From positions 1-6,497 of the forward strand of contig JALGVQ010000169.1 in NCBI GenBank assembly GCA_025774615.1: a DNA stretch of 6,497 bases, in the 5' to 3' direction. The DNA comes from a bacterium. GTDB taxonomy: Bacteria > Blakebacterota > Blakebacteria > Blakebacterales > Blakebacteraceae. Under the pieces are notes generated by a model, which had not been told where the DNA came from, made no database searches, and saw nothing but the letters and a program-made list of their open reading frames with translations. The position numbers and the translations under genes are program-made. This document shows positions 3,686 to 6,497 of the stretch, one piece after another; position 1 is the first letter of the stretch, and each line of letters opens with the position of its first letter.

Positions 3686-4627
3686 ATGATGAACCGGAGA
3701 GTCTTTCTCGAGAGCGCGAGTGTCGGTTTTGCCGCGCTCCATCTGTCGGCCACAACCGGCTACAGCACCGAGGTGCTGCCGAAAACCGGTGCTGTCGGAG
3801 TGGGGATATGTGACTGGAACCTCGGGCCGATGTGCGATCCCGGCAAGATTCCCCTGGCCCGTGAAGCGGACCTGGAGGGGATTCAGGTAAGTCTGGGCAG
3901 TGATCCGGAGAACATCCCCTTGAGAGATCCCCTCGTGCGACGGGAATACCTGGAATTGGGTGAGCAGTACGACATCACCTTCCATTCAGTCGCAATCGGA
4001 ATGCTCAATACCTTCCCCCTGGCCATCGAGCCCCGGGCCGCGGTCTGGGTTGTGGATGCGATCGAGGCTGCCGCGGCGATCGGCGCCGGCAACATCCTGC
4101 TCGCCTTCTTCGGGAATGGCGATCTCAGGTGGCGTGATGGTGACGGGCAGTTTGTCGATGAGAAGGATGGGGAGTTCTCCTCTTTCCGGCTGGATGAGGA
4201 GAAGGTCACCTCGGTTGTCGAGACGCTCAAGCAGGTCGTTCCCCGCGCCCGGGACGCCGGGGTGATCATCGGACTGGAGAACACGATTACCGCCAGGCAG
4301 AACCTGGAGATCATCGGCCGGGTGGGTGCAGACCGGGTTCAGGTCTACTACGATGTCGGCAACTCGACCGGCAATGGATATGATGTGCCCGGCGAACTGC
4401 GTCTCATCGGCAATGGCCGGCTCTGCGAGGTGCACCTGAAGGACTGGAATACCCCCCTGCTGGGGAGTGAGGGATGCATGGTGGATATGGCGGCTGCAGC
4501 CGTAGCGCTCGATGAGATCGGCTTCAACAAGTGGCTGGTACTGGAGACGAGCGGCCGGAGTGATCACTTCGTTGAGGACACCCGCCGGAACGTGGCATTC
4601 GCGCGTGAGACGTTCCGGATGGCCTGA
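3686..4627 (+). CDS. Tat-exported sugar isomerase/epimerase-like TIM-barrel protein
   Basis: A 313-residue member of the xylose-isomerase-like TIM-barrel (AP endonuclease family 2) superfamily, which isomerises, epimerises or dehydrates sugars using a divalent metal. The N-terminus has a twin-arginine signal (NRRVFLE, residues 3-9, then a hydrophobic stretch ending near LSA at 20-22), so it should fold in the cytoplasm and act outside it. Barrel landmarks are ICDWNLG, FHSVAIG (His100), GLENT (Glu198), YYDVGN (Asp223), VHLKDW (His250) and LVLETS (Glu287); the last four fit the usual E-D-H-E metal set. Two adjacent ATGs (3686, 3689) are possible starts; AGGGGAG at 3673-3679 serves either. The gene follows a promoter, and its stop overlaps the next ATG by one base (TGATG). 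The substrate is unknown; the neighbouring Gfo/Idh/MocA gene suggests a role in sugar, possibly keto-sugar, breakdown. Confidence 0.85.
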   Translation: MMNRRVFLESASVGFAALHLSATTGYSTEVLPKTGAVGVGICDWNLGPMCDPGKIPLAREADLEGIQVSLGSDPENIPLRDPLVRREYLELGEQYDITFHSVAIGMLNTFPLAIEPRAAVWVVDAIEAAAAIGAGNILLAFFGNGDLRWRDGDGQFVDEKDGEFSSFRLDEEKVTSVVETLKQVVPRARDAGVIIGLENTITARQNLEIIGRVGADRVQVYYDVGNSTGNGYDVPGELRLIGNGRLCEVHLKDWNTPLLGSEGCMVDMAAAAVALDEIGFNKWLVLETSGRSDHFVEDTRRNVAFARETFRMA

Positions 4628-6192
4628 TGAAATACCTGCGGCATCCCGTCACACTGGGGATAGTGATAGGCATCCTGGCCCTCGTCATGGTGAGGGCGGG
4701 AAATTCGACAACCTCCACGGACCGCTTCTGTGAATCGTGTCACGTCCACCCCCAGGCGACCACCTCCTGGAAACTCTCCACCCATTACAGCACGAAGAGC
4801 GGGGTGGTGATCCACTGTGTCGAGTGTCATCTCCCTCCCGGCGGTATCTCCTATGTGATCCAGAAGACACGACTCGGTGTACGCGATGCAGTCAGCAAGC
4901 TCCTCAAGGACCCTGAAAAGTTCGACTGGGATGAGCGTTCACAGCTCGAACACGCGAAATCATATACCTTCCGCGAATCATGCATTGATTGTCATAGCAA
5001 CCTTTTCCCCCTTCAGCTCACCGACAAGGGAGAGGAAGCCCATCTCTACTATGAACAGAAAGAGGATGAGCTTCGCTGCATCAACTGCCACCTGTACGTG
5101 GGGCATTTCGATCCAGACGCCACCCAGGATATCGATTTCGGGATCACGACCACCGTTGAGAGAGAGGTCTACACCCGGCCCGCCGAGGTGGAGGGATTTA
5201 CCGATTTCACCGAGCAGATCCCCGGCACAAGTGTCGATTTCGGGATGGTGGCCATCCCCGGCGGCACTTTCACTCTGGGCAGTCCACCCGATGAGCGATA
5301 CCGGAGATCGGATGAAGGGCCTCAGCGGCAGGTGAGGGTGAGTTCATTCTGGATGGGCAGGGTCGAAGTGACCTGGGATGAGTTCGAGGCGTGGTATCGC
5401 GCAACGGCCGGAGAGGGGAGAACCGACACACGGGCTCTCGATGCTCAGGCGGATCCCGGTGTCGATGCAGTCACCGGCGCGACTCCTCCCTATGTCCCCC
5501 CCGATCAGGGCTGGGGCAGGGGAGAGCGGCCGGCCATCACCATGACCCACCATGCCGCGCTGGCCTATTGTGAATGGCTATCGAGCGTGACCGGTAAACG
5601 GTACCGACTGCCGACCGAAGCGGAGTGGGAGTACGCCAGCCGGGGGGGAACAGAGACACCCTATTTCTTCGAGGGGGATGCAAAGGATTTCACCGAGAAG
5701 CGGTTCTGGAACCGGCTCTTCGGCACACGGAGTGATGCGATCGATCCATGGGTGATCTATGCCGGTAACAGCGGTGGTAAGACACAGACGGCGGAGAATA
5801 TTTCCCCCAATCCCTTCGGACTCATCAACATGCTCGGGAACGTGCGAGAGTTCTGTCTCGACTGGTACGCTGCCGATGCCTACACAGCCTGGCCGGCAGG
5901 ATCTGTGGTCATCGATCCCCGGGGACCGGCCTCCGGTTCCGAGCACGTGGTCAGAGGGGGCTCATTCCGGAGTGATCCTGCCGATGCGCGCTCTGCCTCG
6001 CGGGATCGAACCCGTGTGGAAGCCTGGCTGATGACCGATGATGACCGATCCCCAGATCCCGAAGAGTCTCTGGTGGTATTCCGACTGTATCGATGTCGGA
6101 TTCCGTGTAGTATGCGAACTGGCTGTGGAAGAGAAGGATTGAGTCCGAAACCGATTATAACACCACGCTGCACTGGAGGAATCGTTCCATGA
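4627..6192 (+). CDS. Membrane-anchored tetraheme NapC/NirT-type cytochrome c fused to SUMF1 (FGE-like) domain; frameshifted near C-terminus
   Basis: As read this is 521 residues. A single N-terminal membrane anchor (about 8-24) precedes four CxxCH heme motifs: CESCH (35-39), CVECH (64-68), CIDCH (119-123) and CINCH (151-155). SWKLSTHYS between hemes 1 and 2 and CINCHLYVGH at heme 4 are typical of the NapC/NirT/NrfH family, which passes quinol electrons to periplasmic partners. From about residue 203 a SUMF1 domain begins (MVAIPGGTFTLGSPPDE, then FWMGRVEVTWDEFEAW, RLPTEAEWEYASRGG at 327-341, GLINMLGNVREF, VRGGSF at 442-447). The cysteine pair of true formylglycine-generating enzyme is absent after RGGS. 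After Asp471 the frame is wrong: a 10-bp tandem duplication (6029-6048) replaces the expected end with 50 unrelated residues. Removing one copy gives PQIPKSLWWYSD, VGFRVVCE and a stop at 6140-6142, a 501-residue protein. D280-T286 (DAVTGAT) resembles an ApbE flavinylation site. The start is coupled to the preceding stop. Confidence 0.88.
   Translation: MKYLRHPVTLGIVIGILALVMVRAGNSTTSTDRFCESCHVHPQATTSWKLSTHYSTKSGVVIHCVECHLPPGGISYVIQKTRLGVRDAVSKLLKDPEKFDWDERSQLEHAKSYTFRESCIDCHSNLFPLQLTDKGEEAHLYYEQKEDELRCINCHLYVGHFDPDATQDIDFGITTTVEREVYTRPAEVEGFTDFTEQIPGTSVDFGMVAIPGGTFTLGSPPDERYRRSDEGPQRQVRVSSFWMGRVEVTWDEFEAWYRATAGEGRTDTRALDAQADPGVDAVTGATPPYVPPDQGWGRGERPAITMTHHAALAYCEWLSSVTGKRYRLPTEAEWEYASRGGTETPYFFEGDAKDFTEKRFWNRLFGTRSDAIDPWVIYAGNSGGKTQTAENISPNPFGLINMLGNVREFCLDWYAADAYTAWPAGSVVIDPRGPASGSEHVVRGGSFRSDPADARSASRDRTRVEAWLMTDDDRSPDPEESLVVFRLYRCRIPCSMRTGCGREGLSPKPIITPRCTGGIVP
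6029..6048 (+). repeat. 10-bp tandem duplication causing a frameshift
   Basis: TGATGACCGA occurs twice in direct succession (6029-6038 and 6039-6048), and the period-10 match extends one base further to 6049. The copy number is not a multiple of three. With one copy, the SUMF1 reading frame continues through A-W-L-M-T-D-P-Q-I-P-K to the family's normal ending. With two copies, the frame is lost. The repeat is therefore most likely a recent slippage duplication or an assembly artefact. Confidence 0.9.
6175..6180 (+). promoter_or_regulatory. Ribosome binding site of the Gfo/Idh/MocA gene
   Basis: GGAGGA lies 8 nt upstream of ATG 6189 and fixes that start. The gene thus has its own strong ribosome binding site in the 46-nt gap left if the upstream gene ends at 6142, which supports 6142 over 6192 as the natural upstream stop. 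Confidence 0.75.
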
Positions 6193-6497
6193 GCGAGAAG
6201 AAGGATGGGCCAAACAGGAGAGAATTCATCGAGATCGCGGGGCTGGTGGGAGCCGCAGGCGCTGTCGGATTAGTGGCTGCCGGCTGCAGCGGGGTCGGCG
6301 ACGTCTATGCCGATTACCCCTTCCCGGACATGCTCGATACCGCTCCCGACGGACCGGTCCTCAAGGCGGGACTGATCGGCTGTGGCGGGCGCGGAACCGG
6401 CGCGGCAGGCCAGTTCCTCTCGGCCGGGCCCAACCTGGAGATCACCGCGCTGGCCGACGTCTTCCAGGACCGGCTCGACGGTTGCCGGAATTCGCTC
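6189..6497 (+). CDS. Gfo/Idh/MocA-family oxidoreductase, Tat lipoprotein, N-terminal part
   Basis: The frame is open to the window end; 103 residues are visible and the C-terminal part is missing. This family comprises NAD(P)-dependent sugar and cyclitol dehydrogenases. The N-terminus has a twin-arginine motif (NRREFIEIAG, residues 9-18), a hydrophobic region and a lipobox ending at Cys33 (VAAGC), so the protein is probably exported folded and lipid-anchored. From about residue 60 the Rossmann dinucleotide loop is seen (LKAGLIGCGGRGTGAAGQFL), followed by ITALADVFQDRLD, where the Asp after the second strand fits cofactor binding. ATG 6189 is set by GGAGGA 8 nt upstream. Exported members of this family are thought to carry their nicotinamide cofactor out bound, as in glucose-fructose oxidoreductase. 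With the TIM-barrel protein and the cytochrome it seems to form a periplasmic sugar-processing unit; the substrate is unknown. Confidence 0.88.
   Translation, partial: MSEKKDGPNRREFIEIAGLVGAAGAVGLVAAGCSGVGDVYADYPFPDMLDTAPDGPVLKAGLIGCGGRGTGAAGQFLSAGPNLEITALADVFQDRLDGCRNSL

Follow-up and report, generated by a model that had tools for sequence, protein, structure and literature searches.

The window analysed here, 6497 bases in length, is the whole of contig C240 from a draft, strain-mixed MAG of 3.3 Mb (324 contigs, 82% complete), as a genome search showed. Its annotatable reading frame joins a NapC/NirT-type tetraheme cytochrome (PF03264, residues 8-164, with four CxxCH motifs) to a SUMF1/FGE-sulfatase domain (PF03781, residues 206-459, Pfam E-value 5.4e-41). 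The stop codon of this frame at 6192 overlaps the ATG of the next gene at 6189 (ATGA). By its appearance, the next gene encodes an oxidoreductase of the Gfo/Idh type; a Pfam search with its 103-residue piece returned no match. A copper-binding pair of catalytic cysteines defines the true formylglycine-generating enzymes, not the SUMF1/FGE-sulfatase domain as such. The stretch GGSFRSDPADARSASRDR contains no cysteine, and the same holds for the homologues. Since the pair is absent, the domain is SUMF1-like and not a formylglycine-generating enzyme.

Within the 3' part of the cytochrome-SUMF1 gene, ten bases are present twice in tandem (Table 1). This duplication had been described in the earlier note, and both direct reading of the sequence and a script reproduce it together with all coordinates given there. 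As the match run extends over 11 bases, the register of the repeat is ambiguous by one base. The duplication puts the last 34 codons of the gene out of frame. Past the repeat, the two-copy frame continues with DDRSPDPEESLVVFRLYRCRIPC and reads 47 unrelated residues up to 6192. The shifted frame gives TDPQIPKSLWWYSDCIDVGFRVVCE past the repeat, with the stop at 6142; this other frame reads TDPQIPKSLWWYSDCIDVGFRVVCELAVEEKD. When one copy is removed in a scripted reading, ...VEAWLMTD is joined to PQIPKSLWWYSDCIDVGFRVVCELAVEEKD, followed directly by the stop, and the two frames are reunited with zero residues lost, as had been claimed from the sequence. The window holds one further exact tandem of at least 7 bp, a 9-bp in-frame repeat at 628. 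In a survey of 102 contigs of the MAG (847 kb) and of control genomes (990 kb), we counted 8 and 5 exact non-triplet tandem duplications with a period of at least 10, respectively. At such rates fewer than 0.1 are expected per 6.5-kb window, and the repeat thus exceeds chance.

Table 1. Features of the window around the tandem repeat (positions counted from the first base of the window).
Feature	Position	Strand	Remarks
TGATGACCGA, first copy	6029-6038	+	sequence read and script
TGATGACCGA, second, tandem copy	6039-6048	+	match run 11 bp; missing from all readable homologues
Annotatable ORF, 521 aa: cytochrome, SUMF1-like domain and spurious 47-aa tail	4627-6192	+	
Conserved-frame 3' end MTDPQIPKSLWWYSDCIDVGFRVVCELAVEEKD, shifted by the repeat	6041-6142	+	stop 6140-6142
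Spurious Cys/Arg/Pro-rich tail, two-copy frame	6049-6192	+	no homologue
Strain SNP T/C	6094	.	Asp, synonymous in conserved frame; Cys to Arg in tail frame
Start of next gene, open at contig end	6189-6497	+	broken in C297 by 61-bp duplication
Zone also covered by C297	6050-6497	+	96% over 6050-6444, 100% over 6384-6497
Exact 114-base contig-end overlap with C297	6384-6497	+	de Bruijn node, k about 115

For comparison, 37 loci were gathered from genome contigs, and 32 relatives among them reach the end of the SUMF1 domain. The strict motif TDPQxPKSxWWYSD...GFRxV, in a frame continuous with the upstream gene, is found in 29 of these. L029 differs from the motif by a single residue, L033 carries a frameshift further upstream, yet its 3' end gives the identical motif, and L031 reads TDPQIPKSL followed by Ns. 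In L031 (CP070727.1) the N run starts at 5434, at the equivalent of PKSL and about 20 bases past the repeat site, and this locus is likewise one-copy as far as it can be read. All homologues readable across the site (31/31, 49-81% identical) are one-copy and retain the conserved ending. They include the sole other member of the genus among the genomes compared, which is intact and shares 81% identity. The earlier note had named homologues with two copies and the same tail as the finding that would speak against a frame break; the 31 readable homologues are all one-copy, and none of them carries the 47-residue tail in the alignment. Substitutions downstream of the repeat relative to ten relatives (rows summed) amount to 26/11/105 at the first, second and third codon positions of the conserved frame. 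Counted in the frame of the tail, the same substitutions show an excess at the first codon position. Taken together, the codon-position pattern and the one-copy relatives show that the one-copy frame is the selected one and that the two-copy state is derived. It is thus borne out both that the shifted frame holds the conserved end of SUMF1 and that the duplication is derived and frame-breaking.

The 47 residues up to 6192 might also be read as a real alternative C-terminus that is coupled to the downstream gene, a reading to which the open frame and the ATGA overlap would lend themselves. We regard it as extremely improbable. No homologue has the tail, the conserved codon pattern is present in the other frame only, and the sole strain SNP of the conserved 3' end is synonymous there, while it exchanges Cys for Arg in the tail. 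A Pfam search matched neither the tail nor the conserved 33-residue end. The tail is therefore best called spurious, as had been suspected. Its presence is easily overlooked: the PF03781 match ends upstream of the lesion, at nearly the same residue as in the intact homologue (206-460), which is why Pfam does not reveal the frame break, and the ATGA overlap looks plausible. Annotation would thus hide the lesion, in agreement with the earlier expectation. When the structure of the intact homologue from the same genus was predicted, to see whether the lost segment belongs to the core, the mean pLDDT was 50.6, too low for use.

The last 448 bases of the window, directly after the repeat, overlap with another contig of this MAG. 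This contig, C297 (5030 bases), covers 6050-6497 in reversed orientation with 96% identity and differs from the window by about ten SNPs and one 6-bp indel, which indicates that two strains are present at the site. That the window is an entire contig and that it overlaps with C297 were both beyond the reach of the earlier note. A search of the genome for another full-length copy of the gene found none, TGATGACCGATCCCCAGATCCC being present in C240 only. As the upstream part of the gene likewise occurs just once, C240 and C297 represent strain variants of one locus and not paralogues. When reversed, C297 starts with CCCCAGATCCCGAAGAG at 6050, the first base after TGATGACCGAT and hence after the second copy. 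The breakpoint of a contig coincides with the lesion.

C297 contains a duplication of its own. Window bases 6384-6444 are present in it twice in tandem as an exact 61-bp unit (C297 4569-4690), which is probably an assembly error. The unit begins directly past the last strain SNP (6383), and over the 114 bases that follow, up to the end of C240, the two contigs do not differ. Such a pattern is expected when a strain arm that runs 61 bases into shared sequence is concatenated with the shared piece. With one copy of the unit, the oxidoreductase frame is open over 472 codons.

Further signs of mis-joining are found elsewhere in the assembly. Six contig pairs in the 102-contig sample have exactly 114 bases in common at their ends, which is the hallmark of de Bruijn assembly at k about 115. 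Compared with L120, the strain arm L080 is missing 69 in-frame bases where its 114-bp node borders on the rest of the contig (L080 4212-4213 versus L120 6951-7019), a loss at a shared contig end that is probably a mis-join. An exact 38-bp duplication (L088, contig C18, 3965-4040) breaks a gene that, judged by eye from its translation, is isoprenylcysteine-methyltransferase-like; it lies near a contig end sharing 114 bases with C324, and a single copy would leave the frame open. Likewise, an exact 85-bp duplication (L131, contig C243, 5924-6094) splits a gene that we read by eye from the translation as MsrB-MsrA and that would be open with a single copy; this duplication is probably an assembly error as well. 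These other duplications and the 69-bp loss were judged to be errors by their pattern, not by reads. Exact non-triplet duplications of at least 30 bp number 4 in 847 kb of the MAG compared with 0 in 990 kb of controls, so that the excess consists of four cases (about p = 0.05). Three of the eight non-triplet duplications are located less than 500 bp from a contig end (p about 0.05). For duplications of 10-17 bp, there is no clear excess in the MAG over the controls. Real short repeats do occur in this genome: an 11-bp tandem repeat in folP (L135, contig C247, 3058-3079) is the natural in-frame state.

MAGs from the Guaymas Basin with names in 'Meg' were assembled with IDBA-UD at --mink 65 --maxk 115 (PMC9258230). 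The relative from the same genus is named in this way (Meg22_46_Bin_213), and the 114-base overlap fits k 115. We infer that the MAG of the window comes from such a 'Meg' IDBA-UD assembly. A rule placing the start of C297 and the repeat at a fixed k-mer distance was rejected, because the distance of contig start or repeat from the first SNP varies between the strain-overlap pairs.

We conclude, with a probability of about 0.6, that the second copy arose through a local error of the assembly where two strains branch. The assembler would have met two co-existing strains at the site. An upstream piece may have ended with ...CTGATGACCGA and a downstream piece may have opened with the identical bases. 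If the two pieces were set end to end with their short common overlap left unmerged, 10 extra bases and the frameshift would result. At k about 115, such an artefact would require a gap-filling or local-assembly step. An assembly error explains why the lesion lies within a base of the breakpoint of the strain contig, why the gene is otherwise undamaged and why C297 has its own duplication 350 bases away. The reads would accordingly be expected to lack the second copy. For de Bruijn metagenome assemblies, especially those made with IDBA-UD, local errors and overlaps that were kept in duplicate are documented (Chen et al. 2020, PMC7111523). Our case shares with them the short duplicate at the join of overlapping pieces, the wrong repeat number, the damaged gene prediction and contig ends with a perfect overlap of fixed length. 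It differs in that the join is not marked by an N run, and it is known from the assembled sequence. Several observations speak against an assembly error. C297 begins downstream of the repeat and is silent on the copy number in the other strain. The 20-bp repeat is short compared with k about 115, so that plain graph traversal gives two copies only if the reads had them. Finally, exact 10-bp duplications occur at a similar rate in controls (2 in 321 kb, G007/G008), and the folP repeat shows a natural one of 11 bp in the same MAG.

As exact 10-bp duplications are a background class in other genomes, the second copy could also be a genuine recent tandem duplication, generated by replication slippage in the C240 strain, that truncates SUMF1 and leaves an unfixed pseudogene. 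The position of the repeat in the interior of a contig built with a large k and the derived state seen against the one-copy relatives fit this account, which we consider possible but the less probable of the two. Like other slippage frameshift pseudogenes, the gene shows an exact head-to-tail copy of 10 bp, derived with respect to all relatives, and has lost its frame. However, further decay is lacking. The other 473 codons are intact and about 80% identical to the same-genus homologue, so that the mutation would have to be very fresh. Unlike what is known for such pseudogenes, the site is within a base of the point where a strain-variant contig ends, itself mis-joined elsewhere, in an assembly with other frame-breaking duplications.

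In contingency loci, a non-triplet repeat unit within the coding region can toggle the frame, and the known loci of this type carry long repeat arrays. A reversible slippage switch of this phase-variation type that toggles the C-terminus would in principle be compatible with the non-triplet unit found here in a coding region. We consider it very unlikely. There are two 10-bp copies only, far from the long arrays of known loci, and the second copy is found in 0/31 homologues, including the same-genus genome. The tail that would be read in the off state is unconserved, and it is the first codon position at which its substitutions lie, the pattern of a sequence that is not translated. It is just as doubtful that one-copy and two-copy cells coexist, with the population toggling the last part of the SUMF1 domain by 10-bp slippage. 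Of the three causes that the earlier note had left side by side, signs of mis-joining, both at the site and across the genome, speak for the assembly error, the freshly broken gene stands behind it, and the switch is without support, since no relative has kept the repeat.

Most likely, the repeat is no new genetic device but stems from an error of assembly or, failing that, from an ordinary recent mutation. In the organism itself, the gene most likely contains a single copy, and its product would be a normal NapC/NirT tetraheme cytochrome-SUMF1 protein that ends near 6142. If the second copy is real, it represents an ordinary fresh frameshift. A strain-mixed assembly can fake a pseudogene in which the false reading frame is still matched by Pfam and acquires a plausible ATGA overlap as well. 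With several such lesions in one MAG, claims of gene loss or pseudogenes made from it need read support.

Beyond the lesion, the window (4627-6142) and loci L003-L033 and L035 share a gene fusion in which a NapC/NirT tetraheme cytochrome is followed by a SUMF1-like domain without the cysteine pair. A literature search found no description of this fusion, and its function seems to be undescribed in the literature searched. It is conserved in Gemmatimonadota, KSB1, Bacteroidota, Acidobacteriota, Calditrichota and others at 49-81% identity. At three of these loci (L004, L005 and L007), a reading frame resembling the next gene of the window follows directly after the fusion gene.
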